Position numbers and translations under genes: made by a program. From Jannaschia sp. M317 (GTDB lineage: Bacteria > Pseudomonadota > Alphaproteobacteria > Rhodobacterales > Rhodobacteraceae): DNA of 64,000 nt. The stretch spans positions 654,001 through 718,000 of the forward strand of contig NZ_CP081155.1 of NCBI RefSeq assembly GCF_025141175.1, given 5' to 3'. The notes beneath the pieces were generated by a model that ran no database searches, was not told the origin of the DNA, and saw nothing but the letters and a program-made list of their open reading frames with translations. This document shows positions 21,852-38,062 of this stretch, piece by piece. Numbering within the stretch: the stretch's first letter is position 1; every line of letters starts with the position of its first letter.

Positions 21852-22715
21852 CTATCCCCCTTGTTTGCGATGCCCCGCGCTGTTGCGCGCCATAACGGTG
21901 CTGACCACGATCAGGCCTGCGCCGATCCAGAACCCGGCGCGCGGCACCTCTGCAAAGATCAGCCAACCCACGGTCGTCGACAGGATCAGGCTGCCGTACC
22001 CCAGGATCGCCAGCAGCCCGGCCTCGGCCAGGCGATGGGCCTGCAGAAAACAGACCTGCGCCGATTGTGCGAACAGGCCGATGGCCAGCAGGACGGGCCA
22101 GTCCGAGGGGCCCACAGGCGTCCAGCCGACCCAGGCCAGGGGCGCCGTCGCCAGGGCCAGCCCCGCCGTGTAGACCGTCATCAGAACCACTGTCGGTTGG
22201 TCGCGCAGCTTGCGCGTCACCACGATGGCGGCTGTACCCGCGAACACGGTCGTGGTCAGCGCCAGCAATGCCAGGGTCGAGGTCCCGCCGCCCGGCTCTA
22301 CCGCGATGACAACGCCGATCAGGCCCAGCCCTGCCGCCATCCACCGCCGTGGGCCCGCCCGTTCGGAAAGGAACAGCGCGGCGAGCGCGATCATCATCAA
22401 GGGGCGCGTGAAGTTGATGGCCGTGAACAGGGCAAAGGGCATCCGCGCGATGGCATAGAACGAACAAGTCAGCGCCGTCGTCGACAGGCCCACGCGCAGC
22501 AGGTGCAACCCCGGCGCGCGCGTCTCGGCGAAGCGGGCGCGCGCGAACCAGATCCAGGGTGCGATGACCAACAGGCCCGTCACCGCGCGCAGAAACACAA
22601 GCTGCGCCGCCGGGACGTCCGCGCCCCAGGCCTTGACGATGCTCAGCGCCCAGATGTTGAGCGCCATATCCGCAAACAGCCAGAGCCCGCCGCGCAGGCT
22701 CTCAGACAGGCGCAA
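21852..22715 (-). CDS. EamA family (DMT superfamily) transporter
   Basis: 287-residue membrane protein with ten helices in two EamA repeats (ALFTAINFTRPLMMIALAALFLSE; AILGYGSLILSTTVGWLIFAE). It overlaps the end of the PIG-L gene by 14 bp and belongs to the leftward ROK-PIG-L-EamA operon, so it may export a product of that pathway (inference). Its stop lies directly next to the convergent tRNA-Pro. Confidence 0.84.
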   Translation of the reverse strand: MRLSESLRGGLWLFADMALNIWALSIVKAWGADVPAAQLVFLRAVTGLLVIAPWIWFARARFAETRAPGLHLLRVGLSTTALTCSFYAIARMPFALFTAINFTRPLMMIALAALFLSERAGPRRWMAAGLGLIGVVIAVEPGGGTSTLALLALTTTVFAGTAAIVVTRKLRDQPTVVLMTVYTAGLALATAPLAWVGWTPVGPSDWPVLLAIGLFAQSAQVCFLQAHRLAEAGLLAILGYGSLILSTTVGWLIFAEVPRAGFWIGAGLIVVSTVMARNSAGHRKQGG

Positions 22716-24960
22716 CGAGATTGGCCATCAATCGGAACGCGCCGGGGACCAGCGCATTCATCTGGTGGTGCAGAATCAGGGCGCAATGGGTGTGCCGCCC
22801 CTTGCCGATGTCAGCCGATACCAGCGCGCCGTGCAGCGGCTGCTCATCCGGGTCCGACATCGACAAGAGCGGGGTGTAGGCCGCATCCCAGGACGAGGCG
22901 AAGTACAGCCCGCGTTCCTTGTGCCATCCCTGCCAATCCTGCGGACCAATCGGGTTCGGACCATTCAGTACCGGATGATCCGGAACCAGATGGGTTACGA
23001 CCGCAGCTTCGTCTGTGACCCGCCAGCGCAGCGAAGGTTGACCGACCTGCAGCCGCGCCGGAGGTGCCGCCTCCGGATCCCAGTTGTCCCAGGGGCGGTG
23101 GTAAAGCGTCGTCAGGTTTCCGCCCGCACGCGTCCAGGCGTGGATTGCGGGCATCCGTTCCAACAACCCGGGGCGGAAGCGGAGCGCGAAGATCCCGATC
23201 ACGAGACTGTCGAACTGTGCCAGGGCCGCATCGTCGGCCAGCTGAGCATCCGACAACTCGGTCACGCCCATCCCGATCCGCCTCAGCCAATGGGCCACCC
23301 GGTCGCGTCCGGCACCGATATAGCCGACCCGCGCAGGGGCCAGCGCGACCTCCAACATGGCCAGTCGCAGGATGGCGGGCTGCGCCAGAACGCGGGGTGC
23401 CGTGTGTGCGGCCTGGATCTGTTGGACCGTCAGGGCAGGGGCGTCGTTCAGCAGGACGGGAATCTCATGCAGACCAGGGCGCGCATCGTCTGGGATGGCC
23501 AGTTTGCCGTCGACGATCCGCCAGCCGTCCAGGGTCGCCGCGTCGGGTGACAGGCGCACATCCGGGGCGGGTGCTTTGGTCGAAAGGTTCACGACCTCTG
23601 CCTGAGGGCTCAGGGTCACCGCATCGCCCGGCAGGGCTGCGGGCGTGCGGTCGAAGGGAAGGACCATCGAGATCGCCTCACCCGCAACCTCGGCCATGAC
23701 CGACAGCGCGGGGGCGGGGGGCGACAAAGGCAACCAGGCCTCCGGATAGGGGTCAGAGGTGGTCCCGGGCGCGACCGACAGCCTGTCGCCCTCGGCCGAC
23801 CAGCCAGGGTCCAGCAGCGGCGACACGCTGACCGCTTCGGCGGCCCCTTCGCTGACCTCAAGGATCAGCTGCGCGGGGTCCCCGGGCGCGATCCAGTCGC
23901 GATCCACGGTCGCCCGCACCTCGGTCCCCGAGGCGAGCCAGAGAACGCGGTGCAGTTGCGCGATCTTGGTGGCGACGCGGTGGGCGTGTTCGGGGGCCAC
24001 GGTCGCGTGGCGCAACAGGGCCGTGGCGCGCGCGGCCTCCGGCAGAATTCGGGTGGTGTCCGGAAAGGCGGCGATGGCGGCGTCGCAGGCGGCCTGCGCC
24101 GGGCCAAGGTCCAGATCGGCCAACGACGTTGGCAGGCCGTTGGTCACCGCGGTCTCAACCCCGCCGCCGACCAGATGCAGAGGCCAGTCGTGGGGCACCT
24201 CGGACGGCCAGCGGCCCATCCCCTGTGTGCGGTGCATCGCGCGGGAGTGTTGCCCCATCCGCCCCCAGGTCCAGCCGCTGACCGGGTCGCGGTCGGTTCC
24301 ATGCACCTTGACCGTCGCCTCGGGCGGCGGCAGGTCGTCGTCATAGGCCTGGCCGGCCCCGGACCAGGCCGGCAGGTACAGCTTGGCCACCTGCCAGACC
24401 GGACCCAGATCGGACCCGAACGCGGGATCGGCGGCGGCTTGCATGACCTCATGGGCCAGCAACGTCATGGCGCGGTGGTGGCCATGCTGACCCGGGACGT
24501 CCAGAAACGTCGGGCACAGGATATCTGGCCTGGCCCGCCGCACCACCTGAACGAACCGCGCCAGTGTCCGGTCGCGGCCCCAGCGGTCCAGGGTTTCTTC
24601 GCCGTGTTTGGAAAAGCCGAAGTCGGCGATGTCGCCAGGCCGTTGGCTGAGCCAATACATATCCATGTCGAGACGGGCGGCGGCGGCCTCCATCTCGGCG
24701 GTGCGGAGCGTGCCCAATGCGGCCCCGGCTTCCTGGCCGATATCGTTCTGTCCGCCTTCGCCACGGGTAGAGCAGACATAAGCGATGTGCAGCCCGTCCC
24801 GGAACCGCAACGCGGCCAGCATCGCCGATATCTCATCGTCGGGATGGGCCCCGGACTGCAAGAAGGTGAGCGGCGAGCGCAGGGCGGTCAACGCCTGCCA
24901 AAGTGCCAGGATACGTGGCGCGGCGCGGTCGGCTTCCAGCCGGGTCTGGTCGGGGGTCAT
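22702..24960 (-). CDS. PIG-L family deacetylase with long C-terminal region
   Basis: 752 residues. The N-terminal third is a zinc-dependent N-deacetylase of the PIG-L/LmbE family (de-N-acetylates GlcNAc-type substrates, as in mycothiol and bacillithiol synthesis): AHPDDE near residue 38, CSTRGEGGQNDIGQ and the distal HGHH metal ligand. The middle is beta-rich, and about residues 560-740 look like a Rossmann/GATase-like domain (VGYIGAGRDRVAHWL, FDSLVIGIFALR, GGNLTTLYHRPWD). No signal peptide, so cytoplasmic. The ATG at 24958-24960 has AAAGG upstream and lies 11 bp after the ROK gene. It is a long version compared with single-domain PIG-L proteins (about 230 residues). Confidence 0.85.
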   Translation of the reverse strand: MTPDQTRLEADRAAPRILALWQALTALRSPLTFLQSGAHPDDEISAMLAALRFRDGLHIAYVCSTRGEGGQNDIGQEAGAALGTLRTAEMEAAAARLDMDMYWLSQRPGDIADFGFSKHGEETLDRWGRDRTLARFVQVVRRARPDILCPTFLDVPGQHGHHRAMTLLAHEVMQAAADPAFGSDLGPVWQVAKLYLPAWSGAGQAYDDDLPPPEATVKVHGTDRDPVSGWTWGRMGQHSRAMHRTQGMGRWPSEVPHDWPLHLVGGGVETAVTNGLPTSLADLDLGPAQAACDAAIAAFPDTTRILPEAARATALLRHATVAPEHAHRVATKIAQLHRVLWLASGTEVRATVDRDWIAPGDPAQLILEVSEGAAEAVSVSPLLDPGWSAEGDRLSVAPGTTSDPYPEAWLPLSPPAPALSVMAEVAGEAISMVLPFDRTPAALPGDAVTLSPQAEVVNLSTKAPAPDVRLSPDAATLDGWRIVDGKLAIPDDARPGLHEIPVLLNDAPALTVQQIQAAHTAPRVLAQPAILRLAMLEVALAPARVGYIGAGRDRVAHWLRRIGMGVTELSDAQLADDAALAQFDSLVIGIFALRFRPGLLERMPAIHAWTRAGGNLTTLYHRPWDNWDPEAAPPARLQVGQPSLRWRVTDEAAVVTHLVPDHPVLNGPNPIGPQDWQGWHKERGLYFASSWDAAYTPLLSMSDPDEQPLHGALVSADIGKGRHTHCALILHHQMNALVPGAFRLMANLVAPV

Positions 24961-24971
24961 GAACGGGCCTT

Positions 24972-26138
24972 TCAGGCGGCAAGCGCCGGGGTGAAGGTTC
25001 GGTTGAGCACCAGTGCCGCGGCACCCAGCGTCGCCGCCGTCCGCGAACAGCGACCGACGCGCAGCGCAGGCTGCGGATTGTCGCCGCGCCGCGCGACGGA
25101 CCGCGCGGGCAGGGCGACCGTTTCGGTCAGGTGACGGACGATGCCCTCGGGCATGGCCCCACACAGCAGGATCGTCTGAGGATCCAGCAGGTTTTCGAGG
25201 ATCGCGATGGCCTGTCCGAACGGGTCGCGCGCCGCATCGAGCCAGGCCATCAACGCCGGGTCCCCCGCATCGAACAACGCCTGCAACGCCGGCATGTCGC
25301 GCACGACGCGGCCATGTGCGGCCAGGTGACGTTCGACGGACAGGCGGCTGAGGCATTCCTCCAGGGGTTGCATCCCCTGGGGGGTGGCGACGGGAATGTG
25401 ACCGATTTCCCCGGCGTTTCCAAAGGCACCGGGGACGATCCTGCCGTCCTGCACGATGGCAAGGCCCAGGCCGGTCCCGAAATAGAGGGTCGCAAAGGTG
25501 GTCACGCCTTCGGGCGCCAGCGCGATACGTTCAGAGATCGCGGCGGCGTTGGCGTCGTTTTCAACGGTCACGGCCAGGTCCAGCGCCTGTGCAAAGACCG
25601 CGCGTGCGTCCACGTCTTCCCATCCGGGCAGGTCCGATCCGTCGCCGCGCAGGCCGGTGCGCCCGAATGGACCAGGAAGCGCCACCCCCGCGCCCAACAG
25701 TCGATTGCGGGCCGAGGGTGCGGCGGCCAGGGCCGCGGCCTTCAGGTCGGGCAGGATGGCGGTCACCGCCTGCGGGGTGGCCCGGTCCAGCGGGCGGCGG
25801 TCATGCCAGACAGGCTGGCCGCTCAGATCCATCAAGGCGGCCAGAATCGCACCGGGCCGCACCTCGATCCCCAGGGCAAAGGCCCCGGTCGCGTTCACTG
25901 CATATTGTCGCGCGGGCAGTCCGCGCTTGCCTTGTTGCAGGCCTTCGTCGCGCAAAAGGCCGTCTTGTTCCAACTCGGCGATGATGTTGCTGACGGCCTG
26001 AGTCGACAGACCGGATCGCCGCGCCAGTTCCGCCCGGCCCAAGGCCCCGCCCGCGTGCAGGTGGCCCAGAACAAGCTGTCGGTTATGGTCGCGAGAGCGG
26101 GCGGGCGTGACGCCGCGAGAGGGGGCCTGAGAGGTCAT
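24972..26138 (-). CDS. ROK family transcriptional repressor
   Basis: 388 residues: an N-terminal winged helix (about 15-75; LGRAELARRSGLSTQAVSNI, recognition helix) and a ROK sugar-sensing domain (LGAGVALPGPF; VENDANAAAISE; FGTGLGLAIVQDGRI; GEIGHIPV). The usual zinc motif CxCGxxGC that follows GEIGH in ROK proteins is absent; the sequence there is PQGMQPLEECLS. It is divergent from the sugar ABC importer and shares an operon with the PIG-L deacetylase. It probably senses the imported sugar or a phosphorylated product. The ATG is preferred over an in-frame TTG at 26154-26156. Confidence 0.88.
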   Translation of the reverse strand: MTSQAPSRGVTPARSRDHNRQLVLGHLHAGGALGRAELARRSGLSTQAVSNIIAELEQDGLLRDEGLQQGKRGLPARQYAVNATGAFALGIEVRPGAILAALMDLSGQPVWHDRRPLDRATPQAVTAILPDLKAAALAAAPSARNRLLGAGVALPGPFGRTGLRGDGSDLPGWEDVDARAVFAQALDLAVTVENDANAAAISERIALAPEGVTTFATLYFGTGLGLAIVQDGRIVPGAFGNAGEIGHIPVATPQGMQPLEECLSRLSVERHLAAHGRVVRDMPALQALFDAGDPALMAWLDAARDPFGQAIAILENLLDPQTILLCGAMPEGIVRHLTETVALPARSVARRGDNPQPALRVGRCSRTAATLGAAALVLNRTFTPALAA

Positions 26139-26167
26139 GGGTCGGGAATAACTCAAGACGGTTGTAT

Positions 26168-26184
26168 ACTCAACAATGTTGAGT
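26168..26184. promoter_or_regulatory. 17-bp palindromic operator for the ROK regulator
   Basis: ACTCAACAATGTTGAGT is a perfect palindrome (8-bp arms around one A), lying 30 bp before the ROK start and 76 bp before the ABC binding-protein gene. A half site, AACTCAA, recurs at 26150-26156. Its place between the divergent genes suggests that the ROK protein controls both operons here. Binding is not shown. Confidence 0.65.
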
Positions 26185-26259
26185 TAACCCTTGGTCAGAA
26201 TGTTCGCCCGGCCATGGATCGGGCGGCGCGCCATGCCACGCCAACGGGAGATGACCTTT

Positions 26260-27510
26260 ATGACGTTCCTAAGACAGACTGCTTTCGCTGCCCTCGCTTC
26301 GCTTGGGCTCGGAGGTGCCGCGCAAGCGGTTGAAATCGAATACTGGCAATACTTCTTCGACGCGCGTGTCGACGCGATGGAGCAGTTGATCGAGAATTTT
26401 CAGGCTGCGAACCCCGACATCACCGTCACGATGACGCATTTCCCCTACGCCGACTATCGCACCAAGGTCGCCGCCGCGATTCCCGCAGGCGAAGGCCCGG
26501 ACGTTGTGCAGCTGTTCTACGGATGGCTGAACGACTACGTCGAAGCAGAGCTGATCCAGCCGCTTCCGTCGGACGTTTTCCCGGCGGCAAAGATCGACGC
26601 AGAGTTCTTCCCGATGGTTCAGGCCATGAAGGACGGCGAAAACTACTGGGCGCTGCCGACAGCCGTGCGTTCGCTCGCTTTGTTCTACAACGAGCGTCTG
26701 TTCGAAGAGGCTGGCATCGAAAGCCCGCCCGAAACCCTGGAAGAGATGATGGAGGTCGCCGCCGCCCTGACCAAGAAGGACGGGGCCGGGAACATCACTC
26801 AGGTCGGTATCACCGCCGGCATGACCGCGCAGGATCATCATTGGTGGCGCGAAGGTCTGGTCCGTCAGATGGGCGGAGAGCCTTACGTCGACGACTACAA
26901 GACCGTGAACTACAATTCGGACGCCGGCCGCATGGCCGCCGAGTTCTATACGAACATGTTCATGGGTGAAGACCCGGTCACCGGTATCGGTTTCATGGAC
27001 GAGCCGCAGGCCGCCTTCAAGGCCGGGCGCGCGGGCATGCACATCGATGGGTCGTTCCGTATCGGGTCGCTGAACGGGGTGCGCGGTCTGAACTGGGGCG
27101 TCACCGAGTTGCCCGCGAATGCGGACGGGGTGCGGTCCAACTACTCCTCCTACTGGGTGAACGCGATCACCACCAAGGCAGAGGGCGAGAAGTACGACGC
27201 CGCCGTCAAGTTCATGGAATACGTCACCTCTGACGAGGCGATGCAGATCTGGCTGGACGTGGTCGGCGAACTGCCTGCCAAGCCGTCGGTGGGTATGACC
27301 GACGCCAACGCCAACGACGACACCTTCGGGCCGTTCATCCGGGGGCTCGCCTATGCCAACACCACCAAATTCGCCAACGAAAGCGCGCAGCGCCAGCTGA
27401 TGGTCGAAATGGTGGAGCGGGTGCAGCTGGAGGGGATGACCCCTGCCGACAGCCTGGCCATCGCCGCCGAGGCCGAACAGAAGATTCTCGACGAGTACTA
27501 CTCCGAGTAA
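26260..27510 (+). CDS. Sugar ABC transporter substrate-binding protein (CUT1)
   Basis: 416-residue periplasmic binding protein of family 1 (MalE/UgpB type). It has a signal peptide (MTFLRQTAFAALASLGLGGAAQA) and then VEIEYWQYFFDARVDAMEQL, later AGRAGMHIDGSFRIGSL and NYSSYWVNAITTKAEG typical of CUT1 proteins. The chosen ATG is nine bases after GGGAG. First gene of a probable eight-gene operon. The ligand is unknown; the partner enzymes suggest an amino-sugar derivative. Confidence 0.9.
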   Translation: MTFLRQTAFAALASLGLGGAAQAVEIEYWQYFFDARVDAMEQLIENFQAANPDITVTMTHFPYADYRTKVAAAIPAGEGPDVVQLFYGWLNDYVEAELIQPLPSDVFPAAKIDAEFFPMVQAMKDGENYWALPTAVRSLALFYNERLFEEAGIESPPETLEEMMEVAAALTKKDGAGNITQVGITAGMTAQDHHWWREGLVRQMGGEPYVDDYKTVNYNSDAGRMAAEFYTNMFMGEDPVTGIGFMDEPQAAFKAGRAGMHIDGSFRIGSLNGVRGLNWGVTELPANADGVRSNYSSYWVNAITTKAEGEKYDAAVKFMEYVTSDEAMQIWLDVVGELPAKPSVGMTDANANDDTFGPFIRGLAYANTTKFANESAQRQLMVEMVERVQLEGMTPADSLAIAAEAEQKILDEYYSE

Positions 27511-27520
27511 TCCGATACCG

Positions 27521-27546
27521 GGTCCGGCCCCATGACGGGCCGGACC
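27521..27546 (+). terminator. Intercistronic hairpin after the binding-protein gene
   Basis: GGTCCGGCCC and GGGCCGGACC form a 10-bp stem around CATGAC, 10 bp after the stop. No T-run follows. Such hairpins usually protect the binding-protein part of the mRNA and lower expression of the permease genes that follow. Confidence 0.5.
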
Positions 27547-27610
27547 TGTCATCCCATCGTTTCCAACTCTACGTGGTTCGGGCCTGATGCCGGACCCGAA
27601 AGGGACCGTC

Positions 27611-28507
27611 ATGACCGCCTACCGCAACCTGACCATCCGCCAGAAGCAGATCGTCTGGGCCTGGATCTTTCTTGCGGTTCCGGTCCTGTTCTATGTGGTT
27701 ATCCGGTTCTATCCGACGGGCAACGCGGTCCTGATCTCGTTCCAGGACTGGAACCTGTTGGGGGCACGGACATGGACCGGCCTCGACAACTACGAAAAGC
27801 TCTGGAACGATCCGACATTCTGGAAGGTCTTCGTCAATACCTTCGAATATCTGATCATCGGCACGCCGGTCTCGTTGGTGCTGTCCTTTGTGATTGCCTA
27901 CCACCTCGATAAACTGCGGTTCGCGCATTCGTTCATCCGAATGCTCTATTTCCTGCCTTTCATGACGTCGGCTGTTGCAATGGCCTGGGTCTGGCGGTGG
28001 TTCTATCAGGGGGTGCCTATCGGGTTGTTCAACAACCTGCTGGCCTCGGTCGGGATCGCCCAGATCGAGTTCCTGAATTCGACCACCAATGCCCTGCCCG
28101 CCGTTCTGGCCCCTGCAATCTGGGCCGGGCTGGGGTTTCAGATCATCATCTTCATGGCCGGCCTGCGCGCCATTCCCGTCAGCTACTATGAGGCGGCGCG
28201 GATCGACGGGGTCGGCTGGTGGACGGTCCTGACCGAGATCACCATCCCGCTCTTGCGTCCGACAATCGTGTTCATCGTCGTGTTTTCGTCCATCGGGTTC
28301 CTGCGGATCTTCGATCACGTCTTCAACATGACGACGAACAATCCGGGCGGACCGCTCAATTCCACGAAACCCTTGGTGCTGATGATTTATGACACGGCGT
28401 TCAACGCCTTCGACATGGGCTATGCGGCGGCGCAGACGGTGGTTCTGTTCACCATCCTGCTGATCGTCTCGCTGCTGCAACTCTGGATTCTGAGGTCCGA
28501 CCGATGA
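27611..28507 (+). CDS. Sugar ABC transporter permease (MalF type)
   Basis: 298 residues, six membrane segments and the EAA loop YYEAARIDGVGWWTVLTEITIPLLRP contacting the ATPase. The ATG at 27611 has AAAGGG at good distance. It overlaps the next permease by four bases (ATGA) and would form a heterodimer with it. Confidence 0.92.
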   Translation: MTAYRNLTIRQKQIVWAWIFLAVPVLFYVVIRFYPTGNAVLISFQDWNLLGARTWTGLDNYEKLWNDPTFWKVFVNTFEYLIIGTPVSLVLSFVIAYHLDKLRFAHSFIRMLYFLPFMTSAVAMAWVWRWFYQGVPIGLFNNLLASVGIAQIEFLNSTTNALPAVLAPAIWAGLGFQIIIFMAGLRAIPVSYYEAARIDGVGWWTVLTEITIPLLRPTIVFIVVFSSIGFLRIFDHVFNMTTNNPGGPLNSTKPLVLMIYDTAFNAFDMGYAAAQTVVLFTILLIVSLLQLWILRSDR

Positions 28508-29400
28508 CCGATGCGACCCTGACTGATGTGCCTGACCGGGTGAAACCCTCGTCCGAGGCATTGCTGGCCAAGCCCACCGGGCGCGGCCCCCGCGACAATG
28601 TGCAGATCATCCGCTGGATCCTGCTGTTCCTGGGCGGCATCCTGATGGTGATGCCCATCGCCTACATGATCTCCACCTCGTTGAAGTGGCCGCATGAGGT
28701 CTACAACGTCAATCTGATCCCCGATGAGCCGACGATCGAGAACTATACCTATGTTCTGGAGGATGGGCGGTTCTTCAACTGGTTCATCAATTCGATCATC
28801 ATCGCGACGATCACCACGATCTCGAACCTCTTTTTCGACAGTCTCGTGGGCTACACCCTGTGCAAGTTCAAGTTTCCGGGCCGCACGCTGGTCTTCATCG
28901 CGATCCTGTCGACCCTGATGATCCCGACCGAGATGCTGGTGATCCCCTGGTATCTGATGAGTCAGCAATTCGGTTGGCTGGACAGCTATTGGGGCATCAT
29001 GTTCCCCGGTCTGATGACCGCCTTCGGGACCTTCCTGATGAAGCAGTTCTTCGAAAGCGTGCCCGACGATTTCATCGAGGCGGCGCGGATCGACGGGTTG
29101 AACGAGTTCCAGATCTGGTGGGAAGTGGCGATGCCGCTGGTCAAACCCGCGCTTGCCGCGCTGGCGATCTTCGTCTTCCTCGGCAACTGGACCGCGTTCC
29201 TCTGGCCGCTGATCGTGACCAATTCGCCGGACATGTATACGCTGCCCGTCGGGCTGGCGGGCTTTGGCGACGAGGCGGATGTCGCCTGGGAGCTGATCAT
29301 GACCGGTGCCGCGATCTCGACCATTCCGACGCTCGTGGTGTTCCTGATCTTCCAACGTTTCATCATCCGCGGCGTCGTCATGGCGGGGCTGAAGGGATGA
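28504..29400 (+). CDS. Sugar ABC transporter permease (MalG type)
   Basis: 298 residues with an N-terminal polar tail of about 35 residues, six membrane segments and the EAA loop FIEAARIDGLNEFQIWWEVAMP. The ATGA overlap couples it to the first permease. A 196-bp stretch without any recognisable gene follows before the lyase gene. Confidence 0.92.
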   Translation: MTDATLTDVPDRVKPSSEALLAKPTGRGPRDNVQIIRWILLFLGGILMVMPIAYMISTSLKWPHEVYNVNLIPDEPTIENYTYVLEDGRFFNWFINSIIIATITTISNLFFDSLVGYTLCKFKFPGRTLVFIAILSTLMIPTEMLVIPWYLMSQQFGWLDSYWGIMFPGLMTAFGTFLMKQFFESVPDDFIEAARIDGLNEFQIWWEVAMPLVKPALAALAIFVFLGNWTAFLWPLIVTNSPDMYTLPVGLAGFGDEADVAWELIMTGAAISTIPTLVVFLIFQRFIIRGVVMAGLKG

Positions 29401-29596
29401 TCGGGCATGCCGGAAAAGGTCCAGTGGATCGTTCAATCCGCGACTGCGCGCAGCGGCGGTCGTTCGCAACGTCCGGTCTTCTTGCCAGAATGACGCTGAC
29501 ACGACGCCTTTCCGCAGGTCACGCGGTGGGGTGGCGTTCGATCAGCCAGGGCTCGGCCCCGGAACGGAGCTTGAGGCCCGTGACGAGAGGTGCATC

Positions 29597-31081
29597 ATGA
29601 CCGATCTGGAAACCTTCCCCCACCCGGTCTATCGCGACACCGTGCTTGCCCCGCTGTTCGAAGGGGTCAAGGCGCATTACGCCGCCGGAATGGACACGAT
29701 CAACCGGGCGCATCTGGTGATGCTGGTCGAGACCGGGATCCTGTCACCGGATGACGGTGGCGCCATCGCTGTGGCGCTGGATGGAATTGCAACGGACCTA
29801 GATCATTCGCAACTGAACTATACGGGCGAATACGAAGACTGGTTCTTCCTCGTCGAGGCGGAGCTGCGCAAGCGGCTGGGCGATCTTGGCGGGGCCTTGC
29901 ACACCGCGCGGTCGCGCAACGACATGGATCACACGCTGTTCAAGCTGGCGCTTCGGGGCCGTGTCGCACGCCTGGAGGCGCAGGTGCAGGATCTGGCGCA
30001 GGCCCTGCTGACCAAGGCGCGGGCGGAACGCGATACCTTGATCGTGGCCTATACCCACGGCCAACCGGCGCAGCCCTCGACCTTTGGGCATTACCTGGCC
30101 GCCGCGTTGGAGGTTCTGCTGCGCGACGCCGCACGCCTGTCGGAGGCGGCAGACGGCCTGGAGCATAGCCCCATGGGGGCCGCCGCGATCACGACCAGTG
30201 GCTTTCCCATCGACCGCGCCCGCATGGCGGACCTGCTGGGGTTCGAGGGGGTTCTGGTCAATTCCTACGGCTGTATCGCGTCGGTCGACTATGTCACCGG
30301 GCTCTATTCCGCGATGAAGCTTCCGTTCGTGCATCTGGGCCGTCTGGTGCAGGATTTCGCCTTTTGGTCGGCCTTTGAGGTCGGGCAGCTGCATTTGCCG
30401 GGCGGGCTGGTGCAGATCAGTTCCATCATGCCGCAGAAACGGAATCCGGTGCCGATCGAACATATGCGCCATCTGGCTGCCGTCACCGCCGGGCGCTGCG
30501 ACGTGATGGTCGATACCATGCGCAACACGCCCTTTACCGACATGAACGACAGCGAAGGCGAGGTGCAGCAGGCCGGCTATGCCGCCTTCGAAAGCGGGGG
30601 CCGGATGCTGGACCTGTTGGCCGCCGTGGTCTCGGCGGCACGGGTCGACGGGACCCGCGTGCGCCGGACCGCCGATGCGGCCTGCGTCACGATCACCGAA
30701 CTGGCTGATACCTTGGTGCGCGATGAGGGGCTGACGTTCCGCGCCGCCCATCATGTGGCCGCCGTCACTGCGAAATCCGTCATCGCGCGGGGCGTGCCCC
30801 TGGGCGAGGGCTTCGACGCGTTCCGCGCGGCCTTTGCCGATCAGGCGGGGCGCGAGGCGGCGATGGACGCCGCGACCTTTGCACAGACGGTGGCGATGGA
30901 AACCTTCGTCGCCCGTCGCGACCGGATCGGTGGGCCCGCGCCTGCCGCGCTGGATGCCGCCTTCGAGGGCTACGCCGAAACGCTCGTCGATCTGCGCACC
31001 CGCACCGACCTGCGCGCCCGCCGCCATGCCCGCGCGGACCAGGACCTGACCCGCGCTTTTAACGATCTGAAAGGGGCCTGA
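29597..31081 (+). CDS. Argininosuccinate lyase-like enzyme (fumarase/ASL superfamily)
   Basis: 494 residues. It keeps the superfamily signatures: RSRND near residue 112, THGQPAQPSTFGHYLAA (family THxQxAQP) and the flexible catalytic loop SSIMPQKRNP. Members remove fumarate or a similar acid by beta-elimination from a C-N or C-O bond. It differs from biosynthetic ArgH at several usually fixed places (TARSRND instead of TGRSRND, ISSIMPQKRNPVPIEH). It stands between sugar-permease and ATPase genes, 3 bp before the latter, which argues for a catabolic role on the imported compound rather than arginine synthesis. The true substrate is unknown. Confidence 0.82.
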   Translation: MTDLETFPHPVYRDTVLAPLFEGVKAHYAAGMDTINRAHLVMLVETGILSPDDGGAIAVALDGIATDLDHSQLNYTGEYEDWFFLVEAELRKRLGDLGGALHTARSRNDMDHTLFKLALRGRVARLEAQVQDLAQALLTKARAERDTLIVAYTHGQPAQPSTFGHYLAAALEVLLRDAARLSEAADGLEHSPMGAAAITTSGFPIDRARMADLLGFEGVLVNSYGCIASVDYVTGLYSAMKLPFVHLGRLVQDFAFWSAFEVGQLHLPGGLVQISSIMPQKRNPVPIEHMRHLAAVTAGRCDVMVDTMRNTPFTDMNDSEGEVQQAGYAAFESGGRMLDLLAAVVSAARVDGTRVRRTADAACVTITELADTLVRDEGLTFRAAHHVAAVTAKSVIARGVPLGEGFDAFRAAFADQAGREAAMDAATFAQTVAMETFVARRDRIGGPAPAALDAAFEGYAETLVDLRTRTDLRARRHARADQDLTRAFNDLKGA

Positions 31082-31084
31082 CCC

Positions 31085-32134
31085 ATGGCCAATCTGAGCC
31101 TCCGCAATCTGGTGAAGCGCTATGGCGACACCGAGGTGCTGCACGGTATCAACCTGGACGTCGCAGACGGGGAGTTCGTGGTTTTTGTCGGGCCATCGGG
31201 CTGCGGCAAGTCGACGACCTTGCGCCTGATTGCGGGGTTGGAGGACGTCACCGACGGTGCCATCGAAATCGCTGGCCGCGACGTCGCCCGATTGGAGCCG
31301 AAGGACCGGGACATCGCCATGGTGTTCCAGAACTACGCCATCTACCCGCACATGACGGTGCGCAAGAACATCGGATTCGGCCTTCGGTCGTCCAAGCTGC
31401 CGAAGGCGGACAAGGAACGCCGCATCGACGAAGTGGCCGAGATCCTGGACATGACACCGCTGTTGTCGCGCAAGCCGAACCAACTGTCCGGTGGACAGCG
31501 GCAGCGGGTCGCCATCGGTCGCGCGATGGTCCGTGACCCCGCAGTGTTCCTGTTCGACGAGCCGCTCAGCAATCTGGACGCGCAATTGCGCACGCAAATG
31601 CGGCTGGAGATCAAGAAGCTGCACCAACGCGTCGGCAACACCATCGTTTTCGTCACCCACGACCAGGTGGAGGCGATGACAATGGCCGACCGCATCGTGA
31701 TCATGAAGGACGGCCATATTCAGCAGGTCGGTACCCCCGCCGAGGTCTATCGCAACCCGGCCAACACCTTTGTCGCCCGCTTTATCGGGGCGCCGTCCAT
31801 GAACATGTTGGAGGGGGTTGCACAGAACGGAACCGTGACGCTGGCCTCTGGCGGGGTGATCGGCACCGGGTCGAATGCGGGCGGCGATATCCTGCTGGGC
31901 GTGCGGCCCGACGATTTGCACCCGGTGGCCGAGAACGCCCTGATCGAGGGGCGCGTGACCGTGCGCGAACCGCTGGGCCCCGAAACCCTGATCTATGTGG
32001 ACACCAAGGGCGGTGAAATCATCGCTAAGGCCGACGGGCGCACGCCACCTGATGTCGGCGCGACCGTTCTGCTGGGGGCCAATCCGCAGGATGTGCATCT
32101 GTTCGACAAGGCGAGCGGGGTGGCGCTGGGATGA
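31085..32134 (+). CDS. Sugar ABC transporter ATP-binding protein (MalK/UgpC type)
   Basis: 349 residues with Walker A (GPSGCGKST), Q-loop (FQNYAIYPHMTV), signature LSGGQRQRVAIGRAMVRDP, Walker B (VFLFDEPLSNLD), H-loop VTHDQ and a C-terminal TOBE/OB regulatory domain (GVRPDDLHPV). It powers the two permeases upstream. Tightly packed between the ASL-like gene (3 bp) and the kinase gene (ATGA overlap). Confidence 0.93.
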   Translation: MANLSLRNLVKRYGDTEVLHGINLDVADGEFVVFVGPSGCGKSTTLRLIAGLEDVTDGAIEIAGRDVARLEPKDRDIAMVFQNYAIYPHMTVRKNIGFGLRSSKLPKADKERRIDEVAEILDMTPLLSRKPNQLSGGQRQRVAIGRAMVRDPAVFLFDEPLSNLDAQLRTQMRLEIKKLHQRVGNTIVFVTHDQVEAMTMADRIVIMKDGHIQQVGTPAEVYRNPANTFVARFIGAPSMNMLEGVAQNGTVTLASGGVIGTGSNAGGDILLGVRPDDLHPVAENALIEGRVTVREPLGPETLIYVDTKGGEIIAKADGRTPPDVGATVLLGANPQDVHLFDKASGVALG

Positions 32135-33033
32135 CAGCCGCGGCGGACAGGCCAGGGGTTCTATGCGTGGGGCGGGTCTATTGCGACCTGGTCTTCACCG
32201 ATTTGCCGCGTCTGCCGACCCTGGGGACAGAGACCTTCGCCGGTGGTCTGTCCCTGCATCCCGGCGGGGGGGCCGCGATCACGGCGGCCTATCTGGCGGC
32301 GCTGGGTCGCCCCGCGTTCCTTGGTGCCTTTCTGCCCGCTGATCCCTTTGGCACGCAGGTCGCGCAGGAGCTGTCGCGCCTTGCGGTGGATTGCAGTTTC
32401 GCACGTTTCGCCGCCGCCGGACTGGACCCACAGGTCACGGTGGCCATGGCAACCGGGGGCGACCGGGCGTTCGTGACGCGGGATGCGGGACCTGCGGCGC
32501 CTGCCTTCGATGCCGCCGCCCTGCGGGATGCGGGAATCGGGCACTTGCACGTGGGAGAGTTGAAGACCCTGGCGGAACGGCCCGACCTTCTGGATCTGGC
32601 AGAGGCGGCGGGGCTGACCGTCTCGCTTGATTGTGGGTGGGACGACGGCCTGACCACACAGGCCGCCGCCCTGATCGAGAGGGTCGCCGTCTTTCTGCCC
32701 AACGCCGACGAATTGGACCGGCTGGAGGCCATGGGCCTGACCCCGCGCGGGCAGATGGTGACCGCCGTGAAACGCGGGGCCGAAGGCGCGCGTGCCTTGG
32801 TAGGCGACACCATGACCGAGGCCTGCGCCCACCCGGCCAAAGTGGTCGATACCACCGGGGCCGGAGACGCCTTCAACGGTGGCTTTCTGCATGGCTGGCT
32901 GGAGGGGTTGCCCCTGGCAGAGTGTCTGGCCGAGGGGATCGCCTGCGGCACGCAGGCGGTGTCGGCGGCTGGCGGCACGACCGGCGCGCTGGCGATCCGT
33001 CAGGACCGGCTGGGACTGGCGGCGGCACAGTGA
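32131..33033 (+). CDS. PfkB/ribokinase family carbohydrate kinase
   Basis: 300 residues. It has the N-terminal GG signature region LHPGGGAAITAAYLAALG and the C-terminal catalytic motif VDTTGAGDAFNGGFLHGWL with the base Asp. The acceptor sugar is unknown; in context it may phosphorylate the freed amino sugar before the SIS enzyme acts. Overlaps both neighbours (ATGA, TGATG). Confidence 0.9.
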   Translation: MTAAADRPGVLCVGRVYCDLVFTDLPRLPTLGTETFAGGLSLHPGGGAAITAAYLAALGRPAFLGAFLPADPFGTQVAQELSRLAVDCSFARFAAAGLDPQVTVAMATGGDRAFVTRDAGPAAPAFDAAALRDAGIGHLHVGELKTLAERPDLLDLAEAAGLTVSLDCGWDDGLTTQAAALIERVAVFLPNADELDRLEAMGLTPRGQMVTAVKRGAEGARALVGDTMTEACAHPAKVVDTTGAGDAFNGGFLHGWLEGLPLAECLAEGIACGTQAVSAAGGTTGALAIRQDRLGLAAAQ

Positions 33034-33560
33034 TGGGCTTCACGTTGGAGGCCTTCGTCGCGGATGCGCGCGCCGCCGCTGCGGCTGCTGATCCGCTGGC
33101 TGCGGTGACGCGGTTGATGGCCGATACGCTGGCCGATCCGGCCCGTGTGGCCGCCGGGGCCCCCACGCCGGACCGGGACGAGACCTGTCTGTTTGAGGAT
33201 GCCACCGTGTCGGTCTGGCATGAACGATTTCAGCCGGACGTGGAATTGCCGCCCCATGATCATGCCATGCCCGCCGTTCTGGGGGTCTATCAGGGCCGCG
33301 AACGCAATCGCCTGTGGCATCGCGTCGATGGTCTTGCCCGCCCTGGCGGTGCCCTCGTCCTCGAGGCCGGCGGCTTTCATGTCTTTGGTCCCGACGACAT
33401 CCATTCCGTCCATGCGGAAGACGGCGCGCCCAGTCTGGGGCTGCATGTCTACCTTGGCCCGCTGACCACGGTGCCCCGATCCCTGTTCGACTGGGAAACG
33501 GGCGCTGCAATCCCCCTGACGGGGGCAAATTTCGAAACGCTGTTGAGGCCCCTTTCATGA
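33033..33560 (+). CDS. Cupin, cysteine-dioxygenase-like metal enzyme (COG5553 type)
   Basis: 175 residues. After an ~60-residue helical part it has a single cupin barrel with PPHDHAMPAVLGVYQGRE and FGPDDIHSVHAEDG plus GLHVYLG, giving the three His of the thiol-dioxygenase group (HxH...H). Related proteins are described as predicted metal-dependent enzymes, near cysteine and mercaptopropionate dioxygenases. The substrate here is unknown. The start ATG overlaps the kinase stop and the stop overlaps the SIS gene (ATGA). Confidence 0.72.
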   Translation: MGFTLEAFVADARAAAAAADPLAAVTRLMADTLADPARVAAGAPTPDRDETCLFEDATVSVWHERFQPDVELPPHDHAMPAVLGVYQGRERNRLWHRVDGLARPGGALVLEAGGFHVFGPDDIHSVHAEDGAPSLGLHVYLGPLTTVPRSLFDWETGAAIPLTGANFETLLRPLS

Positions 33561-34501
33561 GCATCCTGTCACGGGAAATTGCAGAAATCCCCGAGGCCGC
33601 CGCCCGCCTGCTTGACCGCGGCGCGCCCGCCCTGGCCGAGGCCGGTGCACGGCTGCGCGCGCAGGATCCTTCGATCCTGGCCACCATCGCGCGGGGCAGT
33701 TCGGACCATGCGGCCACGGTGCTGGCCTATGGGGCCGGGGCGTTGTCGGGGGTCGTCCCGCTCAGCTATCCGCCGTCGCTGGCGTCGCTGCACCACCAGG
33801 TGCCGCGTTTGTCCGGACAGGTCGCCGTCGCCATCAGCCAATCAGGTCGCAGCGAGGATCTGTTGGCCGCCGGGCGAGCCGTGGTTGCCGGGGGCGGACA
33901 CCTGATCGTTCTGACGAACCGGTTCGATAGCCCTCTGGCCAGAGCGGCGGGCGACGCGCTCGATATCCATGCCGGGCCGGAGCATGCCGTCGCGGCCACG
34001 AAGAGCTTTGTCAATTCGGTGCTGGCTGGCGCGATGTTGCTGGCAGAGTGGCAGGACGACGATGCCCTGCGCGCGGCCCTTGTGCGGATGCCCGAAGCAT
34101 TGTCGCAGCCGCGTCGGATCGACGGGCTGGACGCCGTGCTGACAGGCGGTGACCGGTTGATGGTGCTGGGCCGCAGTGCGTCGCTGGGGATCGCGGGCGA
34201 GGTGGCGCTGAAGGCGATGGAACTGTGTGGGATGACCGCGCTGGCCTATTCCTCGGCCGAGGTGCGCCACGGACCGATGCAGATCCTGCGCGATGGCTAT
34301 CCGGTGTTGGACCTGACGCGCGGCGCGGCATTGCCCGACACGCGGACCCTGCACCCGCCGGCGCCGACGGGGCTGCATCCGCTGCTGGATCCCTTGCTGG
34401 ATCTGGTGCCGATCTACGTGGCCTTGGAACAGGCGGCGCGGGCGCGGGGGCTGAACCCTGACGTGCCCGATCGTCTCAAGAAGGAAACCGTGACCGTCTG
34501 A
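33557..34501 (+). CDS. SIS-domain amino-sugar phosphate isomerase/deaminase (NagB-II/GlmS type)
   Basis: 314 residues with two SIS domains, like the isomerase half of GlmS. Visible motifs are EIAEIPEA (N-terminal), ARGSSDHA, AISQSGRSEDLL (phosphosugar Ser loop), AGPEHAVAATKSFVNS, GRSASLGIAGEVALKAMEL, SAEVRHGPMQI and the C-terminal ARGLNPDVPDRLKKETVTV. No glutaminase domain, so it resembles type-II glucosamine-6-phosphate deaminases and AgaS rather than full GlmS. It ends the importer operon. Confidence 0.85.
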   Translation: MSILSREIAEIPEAAARLLDRGAPALAEAGARLRAQDPSILATIARGSSDHAATVLAYGAGALSGVVPLSYPPSLASLHHQVPRLSGQVAVAISQSGRSEDLLAAGRAVVAGGGHLIVLTNRFDSPLARAAGDALDIHAGPEHAVAATKSFVNSVLAGAMLLAEWQDDDALRAALVRMPEALSQPRRIDGLDAVLTGGDRLMVLGRSASLGIAGEVALKAMELCGMTALAYSSAEVRHGPMQILRDGYPVLDLTRGAALPDTRTLHPPAPTGLHPLLDPLLDLVPIYVALEQAARARGLNPDVPDRLKKETVTV

Positions 34502-34596: not shown

Positions 34597-36171
34597 ATGC
34601 TGAGAACAACCGCAATTCTGACCATTGCCGCATTGGCCGCAGGTGCCGCCAATGCCGAAACCCTGCGTTGGGCGCGGGCGGGCGACAGCCTGACGCTGGA
34701 CCCGCACGCCCAGAACGAGGGCCCGACCCACACGCTGGCCCATCAGATCTATGAGCCGCTGATCATCCGCGACACCTCTGGTGCATTTCAGGCCGCGTTG
34801 GCGACCGATTGGGCCCCCAAGGCCGATGATCCCAACGTCTGGGTGTTCAACCTGCGCCAGGGTGTCAAATTCCATGACGGGGCTGACATGACCGCCGAAG
34901 ACGTCGTCTTCAGCTTTGAGCGGGCCAAGTCCGAAACCTCGGCGATGAAAGAACTGCTGACCTCCATCGTCGAGGTGCGCGCCGTGGACGACCACACCGT
35001 CGAATTCGTCACCGACGGTCCGAACCCGATCCTGCCGAACAACTTCACCAACCTGTTCATCATGGACAAGGGCTGGACCGAGGCCAATGGCGTCGAAAAG
35101 GTGCAGGATATCGCCAACGGCGAGACGACCTTTGCCGCGACCAACGTCAACGGCACCGGCGCCTATACGCTGATCAGCCGCGAACCCGATGTTCGCACCG
35201 TGCTGGAGGCGAACCCCGAGTATTGGGGCAAGGACGACTTCGCCCTGGAAGTGACGCGCATCGAATACACGCCGATCCAGAACGCCGCGACGCGGGTTGC
35301 CGCGCTGCTGTCGGGTGAGGTGGACTTCATCCAGGATGTGCCGGTGCAGGATCTGGGCCGCGTGGATGCGACCGACGGCCTGGTGGTCAAGACCGCGCCG
35401 CAGAACCGGACCATCTTTTTCGGGATGAACATCGGTGCCGATGATCTGTCGTCGGACAATGTCGACGGCGCCAACCCGCTGTCCGACGTGCGTGTGCGTC
35501 AGGCGATGAACATGGCCATCAACCGGGATGCCATCAAACAGGTCGTCATGCGCGGCCAGTCGCAGCCCACCGGCGTCATCATGCCGCCCTTCGTCAACGG
35601 CTGGACCGAGGCGCTGGACGCCGTGCCCGCCACGGATGTCGAGGCCGCCAAGGGTCTCTTGACCGAAGCCGGCTATGGTGACGGCTTCTCGATCCAGCTG
35701 GATTGCCCGAACGACCGCTACGTCAACGACGAGGCGATCTGTCAGGCGGCTGTCGGCATGTTGGGCCAGATCGGCATCACCGCCAATCTGAACGCGCAGT
35801 CCAAGGCGCTGCACTTCCCGCTGATCCAGAACGGCACGACCGATTTCTACATGCTGGGCTGGGGCGTGCCGACCTACGATTCGGAGTACATCTTCAACTT
35901 CCTGGTCCACTCCAAGGACGGGGAACGTGGGTCCTGGAACCCGACCGGGTTCTCTGATGCGGATACGGATGCGGCCATCGTCAGCCTTGCCTCCGAGACG
36001 GATCTGGATGCGCGCAACGCCTCCATCGCCGGGATCTGGCAGACCGTGCAGGACGAGCAGCTGTATATCCCGCTGCACCACCAGGTCCTGAACTGGGGCA
36101 TGTCCGACAAGGTGGGCATCGAGGTTTCGCCCGAGGATGACCCGAAGATCAAATTCTTCGAGATGAACTGA
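34597..36171 (+). CDS. OppA/DppA-type peptide ABC binding protein
   Basis: 524-residue periplasmic binding protein of family 5. It has a signal peptide (MLRTTAILTIAALAAGAANA), then LRWARAGDSLTLDPHAQNEG and the late PNDRYVNDEAICQA loop. It has its own ribosome binding site (CGGGAG) and a strong terminator, so it is probably monocistronic. No permease genes lie next to it; a paralogue is encoded at 40126. Ligand (peptide, opine, nickel chelate or other) cannot be told. Confidence 0.88.
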   Translation: MLRTTAILTIAALAAGAANAETLRWARAGDSLTLDPHAQNEGPTHTLAHQIYEPLIIRDTSGAFQAALATDWAPKADDPNVWVFNLRQGVKFHDGADMTAEDVVFSFERAKSETSAMKELLTSIVEVRAVDDHTVEFVTDGPNPILPNNFTNLFIMDKGWTEANGVEKVQDIANGETTFAATNVNGTGAYTLISREPDVRTVLEANPEYWGKDDFALEVTRIEYTPIQNAATRVAALLSGEVDFIQDVPVQDLGRVDATDGLVVKTAPQNRTIFFGMNIGADDLSSDNVDGANPLSDVRVRQAMNMAINRDAIKQVVMRGQSQPTGVIMPPFVNGWTEALDAVPATDVEAAKGLLTEAGYGDGFSIQLDCPNDRYVNDEAICQAAVGMLGQIGITANLNAQSKALHFPLIQNGTTDFYMLGWGVPTYDSEYIFNFLVHSKDGERGSWNPTGFSDADTDAAIVSLASETDLDARNASIAGIWQTVQDEQLYIPLHHQVLNWGMSDKVGIEVSPEDDPKIKFFEMN

Positions 36172-36844: not shown

Positions 36845-38062
36845 TCAGGTGCCGGGGGGCTGAGTGGCTCGCAGCCAATCGGCGGCAAAGTTTACGGTGC
36901 CTACCGCCGCCAGACGGGCGCTGCGGGCCAGCGCCGCCTCCAGCCGTGCCTGTCGTCCGGCACCCCATCGCACCCCCGCCTCGGGCCAGAGCGCGCGGAC
37001 AGCCAAGACATCCGCTCCCCGCTCCGCCTTCATGTCGATGCGCCCGATCAGGCGGTCGCCTTCGAGAATCGGAAAGACGTAGTAGCCATAGCGTCGCTGC
37101 GCCTCGGGCACGAAAACCTCGATCCGGTAGTGGAAGCCGAACAGCCGTTCCGCCCGCGCCCGGTCGCGGAGCGCCGGGTCAAAGGGGCTGAGGATGCGCA
37201 GGCGGGGCGTGACGCGAGGCGTAGGCCGGTCCAGGGTTTCGGGCCGCAGAACGACGCGGCGTCGGGCCCCGTCGGCCAAGCCGATCTCCGCCTCGGTCAG
37301 GGTGCCCCCCGCCAGCCCATCCGCGACCCAGCGTTTTGCCTCGTCCGGGGTGATCAAGGCCCAAAAGGCCGCCAGCTCCCCCGAGGTGGCGAAACCCAGT
37401 CGGTCCAGCGCACTGCCGCAGGCCCAGTCCACGGTCGTCTCTGTGTCCACAGAGGCGGCGCGCGTGGCCTGGGGAATCACGTTTTCCGTCACGTCATAGA
37501 TCTTGCGGAACCCGTCGCGCCGGGTCACCGACAGCGCGCCCGTCCGCCACAGATGTTCCATCGCGGCCTTGGACGGGTGCCAATCCCACCACCCACCCGA
37601 AGACCGCGCCTCCGTCGCGCCCACGTCCCCCGATCCGCAAGGGCCGTCGTCGGCGATCCGGCGCAGCACCTCGTCCATTTTGGTCAGCCAGTCGGGCCGG
37701 CCCTTGTGCTGCCAGCGCCGCTCCGCTGTTGCCTGATGGCGCGCGAACTTAAGGCGCCAGTGCGGGAAATGGGCCATGTCGATCATGCTGGCGTCATGGG
37801 TCCAATGTTCGAACAAGGCGCGGTCGGTGTCGTGCAACCGGTGCAGGGCCGCGGGCCGATAGCTGGGCCGCCTGGCGTGCAGGATCATGTGATGCGCGCG
37901 GGCGACGGTATTGATTGAATCCAGCTGCACGAAACCCAAATCTTGCAGCACGCCGCGCAGATCCTCCCCGCGCCCCGTGCCGGACGGCGTTTCGGCCAGC
38001 CCGTGACGGTCAAGGAACAGTGCACGGGCGCGGGCGTTGTCGAGGAAGGGGCTGCGTGTCAT
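36845..38062 (-). CDS. YcaQ-type winged-helix DNA glycosylase (DUF1006/HTH_42)
   Basis: 405 residues. The family's catalytic QxD motif is present in VQLDSINTVARAHHMILHAR (Gln46-Asp48), with the YcaQ-like RYGYYVFPILEGDRLIGRIDMKAERG near the C-terminus. YcaQ/AlkX opens interstrand crosslinks caused by alkylating agents by excising damaged bases. Length is typical (about 400). Single gene, divergent from ytoQ. Confidence 0.85.
   Translation of the reverse strand: MTRSPFLDNARARALFLDRHGLAETPSGTGRGEDLRGVLQDLGFVQLDSINTVARAHHMILHARRPSYRPAALHRLHDTDRALFEHWTHDASMIDMAHFPHWRLKFARHQATAERRWQHKGRPDWLTKMDEVLRRIADDGPCGSGDVGATEARSSGGWWDWHPSKAAMEHLWRTGALSVTRRDGFRKIYDVTENVIPQATRAASVDTETTVDWACGSALDRLGFATSGELAAFWALITPDEAKRWVADGLAGGTLTEAEIGLADGARRRVVLRPETLDRPTPRVTPRLRILSPFDPALRDRARAERLFGFHYRIEVFVPEAQRRYGYYVFPILEGDRLIGRIDMKAERGADVLAVRALWPEAGVRWGAGRQARLEAALARSARLAAVGTVNFAADWLRATQPPGT

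Follow-up and report, generated by a model that had tools for sequence, protein, structure and literature searches.

What does a bacterium take up when it places a sugar transporter beside an N-deacetylase-like protein, a lyase resembling argininosuccinate lyase (ArgH), a sugar kinase and a deaminase-like protein? The question is raised by a locus in a 64,000-nucleotide stretch of Jannaschia sp. M317 (contig NZ_CP081155.1, positions 654,001 to 718,000; "the window", to whose own numbering the coordinates below refer), in which a palindromic candidate operator separates two divergent operons. Our reading of the sequence is that the locus probably encodes the uptake and breakdown of an N-acyl-glucosamine dicarboxylate conjugate by a new type of lyase. 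A narrower proposal, to which we would give slightly less than an even chance, is that the substrate is malate linked to N-acetylglucosamine (GlcNAc-malate) or a bacillithiol-type compound, i.e. cysteinyl-glucosaminyl-malate (Cys-GlcN-malate), its disulfide or an S-conjugate; of all the steps, the choice of malate as dicarboxylate is the one most open to doubt.

A conserved gene module

The lyase (29597..31081, + strand) and the long PIG-L (LmbE) metallohydrolase of 752 amino acids (22702..24960, - strand; called from the list of open reading frames (ORFs) and from Pfam and NCBIfam) sit in one cluster and occur together in other genomes. Among 198 genomes of the same family, searched with E limits of 1e-70 for the lyase and 1e-30 for the long PIG-L, the lyase is present in 31, the PIG-L in 30 and both in 30, genome G026 being the only one with the lyase and without the long PIG-L. 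The hypergeometric probability of this co-occurrence is 1e-34, a value that ignores the relatedness of the genomes. By tblastn, every one of the 30 other family loci carries the solute-binding protein (SBP), both permeases, the ATPase and the lyase, and 29 carry the PIG-L. The gene set is a real, conserved module and not a product of chance. A first-pass annotation of this DNA had proposed a conserved catabolic module, which the pairing of lyase and PIG-L across the 198 genomes supports; it had made its case depend on the genes being found together elsewhere, and they do co-occur. In wider samples the lyase (at least 51% identity) was found in 12 of 385 genomes of the class, with six further matches that are weaker and ArgH-like, and in 6 of 398 genomes of the phylum, every one of them from the same class.

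The kinase and the deaminase are replaced among relatives. In the 30 other family loci a PfkB kinase occurs 19 times and a ROK kinase five times, never both in one locus, and nine loci have nearby a gene resembling glucosamine 6-phosphate (GlcN6P) deaminase, drawn from one of two unrelated families: SIS proteins in six loci and NagB-like proteins in three (L112, L115 and L118). One of the six SIS loci, L090, has the gene on the opposite strand, within an adjoining nag-like group. Another exchange concerns the importer of L139, L140 and L143, where PIG-L and lyase stand with Dpp-type peptide importer genes and without CUT1 genes.

The lyase and its relation to ArgH

The window lyase matches PF00206 (Lyase_1) with 140.6 bits and has the SSxMPxKxN loop as well as the T-H and N of the fumarate site, features that assign it to the argininosuccinate lyase (ASL)/fumarase superfamily. 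It narrowly passes the argH model TIGR00838 (292.7 bits, cut-off 279.5), while the module lyase of Deinococcus ficus stays below that cut-off (265.6 bits). A second, canonical ArgH, which has the ArgH motif and groups with E. coli ArgH in our tree, is encoded elsewhere in the same genome (L002). In this tree of 64 hand-picked rows, a branch (99/96) divides the 52 module lyases from the remaining 12, which are ArgH and other ASL-type proteins; long branches were flagged for L224 and L213 within the module group and for Rcaps_pl and L158 outside it, as were several rows of odd composition.

The residues point in the same direction. In the numbering of E. coli ArgH, positions N109, T154, H155, S276, S277, K282, N284 and E289 are common to 131 module and seven ArgH sequences. 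The module sequences replace N19 by V (118 of 131), D286 by V (128), L290 by H (131), Y316 by D (131) and Q321 by E (123), at positions which we take to hold the arginine part in ArgH. Conservation inside the two catalytic loops is partly a product of selection, because 79 of the 131 sequences were found by patterns placed there; N19, L290, Y316 and Q321 lie outside these patterns. Expressed as motifs, module lyases have NPV..EH and N.PF.D..D where ArgH has NPD..EL and LP..Y.KD.Q. MPQKRNP proved wrong as a marker against ArgH, alphaproteobacterial ArgH-like proteins also carrying KRNP; the following V and EH, plus N.PF.D..D, are useful differences at the level of sequence. EDDS lyase scores 165.9-169.9 bits against the window lyase, below the ArgH of Thermus (196.9) and of E. 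coli (179), and N.PF.D..D is absent from it when it is aligned with the module lyase of D. ficus; by this comparison the window lyase is not a close, motif-sharing relative of EDDS lyase. On these grounds we assign the window lyase to a separate clade, distinct from ArgH and keeping the fumarate-site residues. As to the literature, an argH mutant is listed in an excerpt of an arginine crossfeeding study (PMC10041152), and the word "argininosuccinate" does not occur in an excerpt of a Ruegeria transporter paper (PMC10130141).

The amino-sugar end of the proposed route

The SIS-domain protein (33557..34501, + strand; NCBIfam) has its best match in the NagB-II (SO3506 type) model NF046059, with 191.3 bits against a cut-off of 430, and reaches 22.4 bits against FrlB (cut-off 430). 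The best match of the PfkB sugar kinase (32131..33033, + strand; Pfam and NCBIfam) is fructoselysine 6-kinase (FrlD), with 73 bits and a cut-off of 247. Judged by these models, the window genes fail the FrlB and FrlD equivalog cut-offs of the frl system.

Relatives of the module extend this picture. The NagB-like proteins of L112, L115 and L118 all have glucosamine-6-phosphate deaminase as their best model, below cut-off; the closest, that of L112, is 40% identical to E. coli NagB and scores 222 bits (nagB cut-off 237), the other two being weaker. At L144 the lyase stands beside a NagB-II-like SIS protein (311 of 430 bits), a NagA over its cut-off and a NagK-like BadF kinase (247 of 370); no PIG-L was seen there, the contig being cut upstream. 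L090 and L153 likewise have nag-like genes next to the module, and the BadF kinase of Paenibacillus L191 is NagK-like (108 of 370 bits). Because kinase and deaminase are swapped for members of other hexosamine-type families, we take glucosamine to be the sugar, entering metabolism as GlcN6P. The amino-sugar end of the route as first annotated, through GlcN6P, is supported.

Proposed pathway and its alternatives

From the genes we infer the reactions, their order and the substrate as follows. The CUT1 importer would bring the conjugate into the cell, where the long PIG-L would hydrolyse the N-acyl group, so that acetate or cysteine leaves and GlcN-malate is formed. The lyase would deprotonate the succinyl CH2 and expel the anomeric oxygen of the sugar, giving fumarate and free glucosamine, which PfkB may convert to GlcN6P and the SIS enzyme to fructose 6-phosphate and NH3. 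A ROK-family protein would control the whole of this uptake and breakdown pathway. Of the interpretation given in the first-pass annotation, the conserved module, the non-ArgH lyase and the GlcN6P route stand, while the thiol inference drawn from a cupin and the frl/Amadori alternative have lost ground.

Four other readings deserve consideration. The dicarboxylate could be joined via nitrogen, giving glucosamine or GlcNAc N-linked to aspartate or succinate, with the lyase cleaving a C-N bond. The evidence from the sugar side is the same for this case as for cleavage of a glycosidic bond; ArgH and EDDS lyase, the characterised ASL-type relatives that top the list of PDB matches, cleave C-N bonds, and the peptide importers of L139, L140 and L143 fit an amino-acid-like substrate. 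However, among abundant natural metabolites none that is linked in this way and also carries an N-acyl-glucosamine is known to us, and we consider such a linkage unlikely. Still less do we favour an Amadori route, in which fructosyl-aspartate or -asparagine would be imported, PIG-L would act as an amidase, the lyase would yield fumarate and fructosamine, and PfkB and SIS would work like FrlD and FrlB. The 73-bit match of PfkB to fructoselysine 6-kinase speaks for it, as does plasmid pRCB133 of Rhodobacter capsulatus, on which a lyase of a different type adjoins an FrlB-like SIS, a BadF kinase and CUT1 genes. Yet that lyase, long-branched in the tree, does not belong to the module group, the window SIS scores far higher against NagB-II (191 bits) than against FrlB (22), NagB-like genes substitute in three relatives and NagA- and NagK-like genes replace or adjoin SIS in others, and PIG-L is not known to have a role in the fra and frl routes.

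The cluster might instead serve a chito-oligosaccharide-type route with deacetylase, kinase and SIS deaminase as in Thermococcales, the lyase being a passenger with an unrelated substrate. This seems very unlikely to us: a look through the window genes, to which the search was confined, identified no glycosidase, and the lyase, which was the query used to find the loci, stays with importer genes even where PIG-L or kinase is unseen. It is hardly credible that we are dealing with a second argininosuccinate lyase in a cluster created by an accident of annotation. The argH cut-off is passed and plasmid records annotate many of the relatives as argH, but the canonical ArgH at L002, the separate tree group (99/96) and the replacement of Y316, Q321, D286 and L290 in 94-100% of the 131 module sequences all argue against it.

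A possible bacillithiol link

Returning to the proposed GlcNAc-malate or bacillithiol-type substrate, bacillithiol is Cys-GlcN-malate and reaches millimolar levels in B. subtilis, as stated in an excerpt of PMC4360819. BshC was detected in 35 of 41 non-alphaproteobacterial carriers of the module, chosen from 55 named loci not titled alphaproteobacteria, in 3 of 14 control genomes, and in none of 31 carriers of the same family, the window genome included. The pattern weakly fits a mixture of producers and scavengers. In Paenibacillus L191 the best-scoring model for the short PIG-L is BshB2 (114.7 bits, cut-off 195.25). The open-licence PMC papers searched yielded no description of a bacillithiol catabolic route, nor of this gene cluster.

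Several points weaken this link or weigh against it. The BshC evidence is weak because the 41 carriers come mostly from phyla in which BshC is usual, and as proof of the link it was rejected as confounded by phylum. The window PIG-L has no match to BshB1 or BshB2 among the NCBIfam models. The third point concerns the thiol-dioxygenase-like cupin (33033..33560, + strand), an accessory gene recognised by PDB matches: it aligns with mercaptosuccinate dioxygenase 8vni (E=6.4e-7), with HxH and the third His aligned by eye, and has no Pfam or NCBIfam match. A homologue (E up to 1e-5) occurs in 12 of 198 family genomes, and in none of the other 11 is it at the lyase locus; no cupin was found at 45 other loci of the same class or at 80 named loci, some of which are cut by contig ends. 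With the cupin in none of these 125 other loci, it was dropped as a core enzyme, and the earlier thiol inference is weakened.

Distribution across phyla

The module is present in plasmid records of Qingshengfaniella, Parasedimentitalea, Loktanella, Aminobacter, Rhizobium, Thalassospira and other named alphaproteobacteria, in which many lyase relatives bear the label argH. Two Deinococcus plasmid loci (L155, L156) hold ROK, lyase, SBP, permeases, a short PIG-L and a carbohydrate kinase, and a third (L157) the lyase and importer genes only. The short PIG-L of D. ficus matches the MshB, Mca and BshB models, all below cut-off; this species has an additional PIG-L of 754 amino acids (NEW3, CBM9) that appears secreted by eye.

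In a capped scan of genome contigs, an alignment of Deinococcus and alphaproteobacterial lyases was combined with the patterns S[IV]MPQKRN and Y[TS]H[GH]QPAQ, and the best 80 of 584 confirmed stretches were taken as loci. They belong to Pseudomonadota (26), Bacillota (24), Acidobacteriota (16), Deinococcota (4), Chloroflexota (3), Actinomycetota (2), Thermomicrobiota (1) and a Myxococcota-labelled record (1), with three unplaced. PIG-L is found at 37 of the 80 (20 Pseudomonadota, 10 Bacillota, 6 Acidobacteriota and the Myxococcota-labelled one), a PfkB or BadF kinase at 27 (13 Pseudomonadota, 11 Bacillota, 2 Deinococcota, 1 unplaced, none of the 16 Acidobacteriota), a ROK protein at 32, and a transporter gene matched by the queries used at 65. 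Where at least 8 kb are available on each side (51 loci), the counts are 29 for PIG-L, 23 for kinase and 44 for transporter. The association of the lyase with PIG-L, kinase and transporter is strong but not universal.

Importers vary between CUT1, ABC systems with a 2-aminoethylphosphonate-type binding protein, SSF symporters, amino-acid permeases and Dpp-type ABC systems. In the Bacillota loci L191, L181, L183, L189, L193, L197 and L199 the lyase adjoins an ABC system; the best models for the binding protein of L191 are of the 2-aminoethylphosphonate type, below cut-off, and such names may mislead. An SSF-type sodium symporter adjoins the lyase at L172, L180, L186, L190, L192, L196, L204 and L208 (assigned by Pfam in L204, by similarity in the other seven), and some of these loci have a long PIG-L that by eye starts like a secreted protein. 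The Paenibacillus loci L191 and L199, with lyase, BadF kinase and short PIG-L, have a creatininase-family protein between a long PIG-L and the lyase (9178-9960 in L191). At L213 (bacterium 1XD42-54) a divergent lyase has next to it the genes of a Dpp-type importer and an ORF judged by eye to resemble the enolase superfamily. Finally, L248 (R. capsulatus SB 1003 pRCB133, 122595-132929) combines a ROK regulator, a CUT1 importer, a BadF kinase and a GlmS-like SIS with an FrlB-like SIS (80.6 bits) and a lyase that is ASL-type but not part of the module group, and is possibly a separate Amadori or aspartate-conjugate route.

Remaining genes and regulation

The window PIG-L consists of an LmbE domain (about 28-280), a beta-rich middle part and a C-terminal GATase1/ThuA-like domain (541-752). 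The AHPDD zinc motif, the third His and the LmbE fold are all present, the fold comparison covering mainly residues 29-268 and 541-752, and the protein is a member of the LmbE/PIG-L superfamily. It shows no signal peptide by eye, and a PADLOC run gave no match. The importer consists of the SBP (26260..27510, + strand; SBP_bac_8 and SBP_bac_1 matches), 43% identical to that of the D. ficus module, the permeases PermF (27611..28507, + strand; an alternative upstream start at 27587 is in the ORF list) and PermG (28504..29400, + strand; NCBIfam), whose best models are UgpA and UgpE below equivalog cut-offs, and the UgpC/MalK-like ATPase (31085..32134, + strand; PRK11650, UgpC subfamily, 483 bits over a cut-off of 432). 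By these matches they are classed as a CUT1 importer.

The ROK-family regulator (24972..26156, - strand; PF00480 with 100 bits, winged helix-turn-helix by MarR_2/HTH_24) starts at TTG as listed, with an in-frame ATG 18 bases further in; it is probably a repressor, and tblastn puts a ROK protein at the corresponding position in 24 of the 30 other family loci. Between the divergent operons, in a region of about 100-120 bp, lies ACTCAACAATGTTGAGT (26168..26184), a perfect 8+1+8 palindrome and candidate operator. Allowing up to three mismatches, the window contains no second match to it, against an expectation of 0.07, and of 100 shuffles 7 had one; a further ACTCAA half-site is close by. The operator is likely conserved, because ACTCAA or TTGAGT is present in 25 of 28 other measurable ROK-SBP regions (34 other loci tried), although parts of these regions are coding and the count has no computed background to be compared with.

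The third gene of the PIG-L operon encodes an EamA/DMT-type transporter (21852..22715, - strand; ORF list and Pfam/NCBIfam) and overlaps the PIG-L gene by 14 bases; a homologue is found in 16 of 30 other family loci. As a cysteine exporter it is left as a candidate, its family matches being weak (2A78, 50.8 bits, cut-off 230). The first-pass annotation had counted eleven genes from 22,702 to 34,501, of which ten lie there and EamA almost wholly outside. Its gene set, operator and overlaps were borne out by direct reading and by Pfam and NCBIfam, with ATGA junctions in PermF/PermG, ATPase/PfkB and cupin/SIS and TGATG in PfkB/cupin. Past the SIS gene by 95 bases is a gene for a DppA/OppA-type binding protein (34597-36171), which was rejected as a member of the system on its generic similarity only; the flanking ORFs do not resemble permeases for it. 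The ORF at 36845-38062 (- strand, 405 amino acids) is presumably YcaQ/winged-helix AlkZ-like.

Comparison with known systems

Tentatively, and with more doubt than confidence, we propose a widespread undescribed route that consumes bacillithiol-type compounds via a glucosaminyl-malate lyase, which would open the glycosidic C-O bond by beta-elimination to fumarate and glucosamine. If this is true, the module would serve scavenging in non-producers (alphaproteobacteria, Chloroflexota) and scavenging or recycling in producers (Bacillota, Deinococcota, Acidobacteriota), proteins from several phyla that often bear the annotation argininosuccinate lyase would form a group with another function, the long LmbE family would gain a role, and the environmental fate of a major bacterial thiol would become testable. 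Should the exact substrate prove to be another one, the module would still point to the enzymes involved and to a few conjugates worth trying.

Archaeal chitobiose catabolism employs a Dac deacetylase, a GlmA glucosaminidase, a GlmD SIS deaminase and a kinase. The proposed route shares with it import, LmbE-type N-deacetylation, phosphorylation of glucosamine and SIS-type deamination; however, no GlmA-type exo-glucosaminidase or other glycosidase was identified among the window genes (relatives were not searched), and an ASL-superfamily lyase takes the bond-breaking place, which would imply release of fumarate instead of a sugar. With bacillithiol biosynthesis and recycling (BshA/BshB/BshC, Bca) the module would have in common LmbE-type chemistry on GlcNAc-malate or Cys-GlcN-malate, but it is a catabolic set with importer, lyase, kinase and deaminase. 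Like the frl and fra Amadori pathways, it has a sugar kinase and an SIS protein and, as these sometimes do, an ABC importer; in contrast, its SIS is NagB-II-like, and its PIG-L and lyase have no known frl or fra counterparts. The lyase, like ArgH and EDDS lyase, is of an ASL-type family with fumarate-handling residues. N-acetylmuramic acid is catabolised by the etherase MurQ, an SIS protein that cleaves a lactyl ether, together with NagA and NagB. Here the likeness would lie in detaching a carboxylate from an amino sugar without hydrolysis, followed by the NagB route, whereas the cleaving enzyme of the module is an ASL-family lyase and not the SIS protein MurQ.
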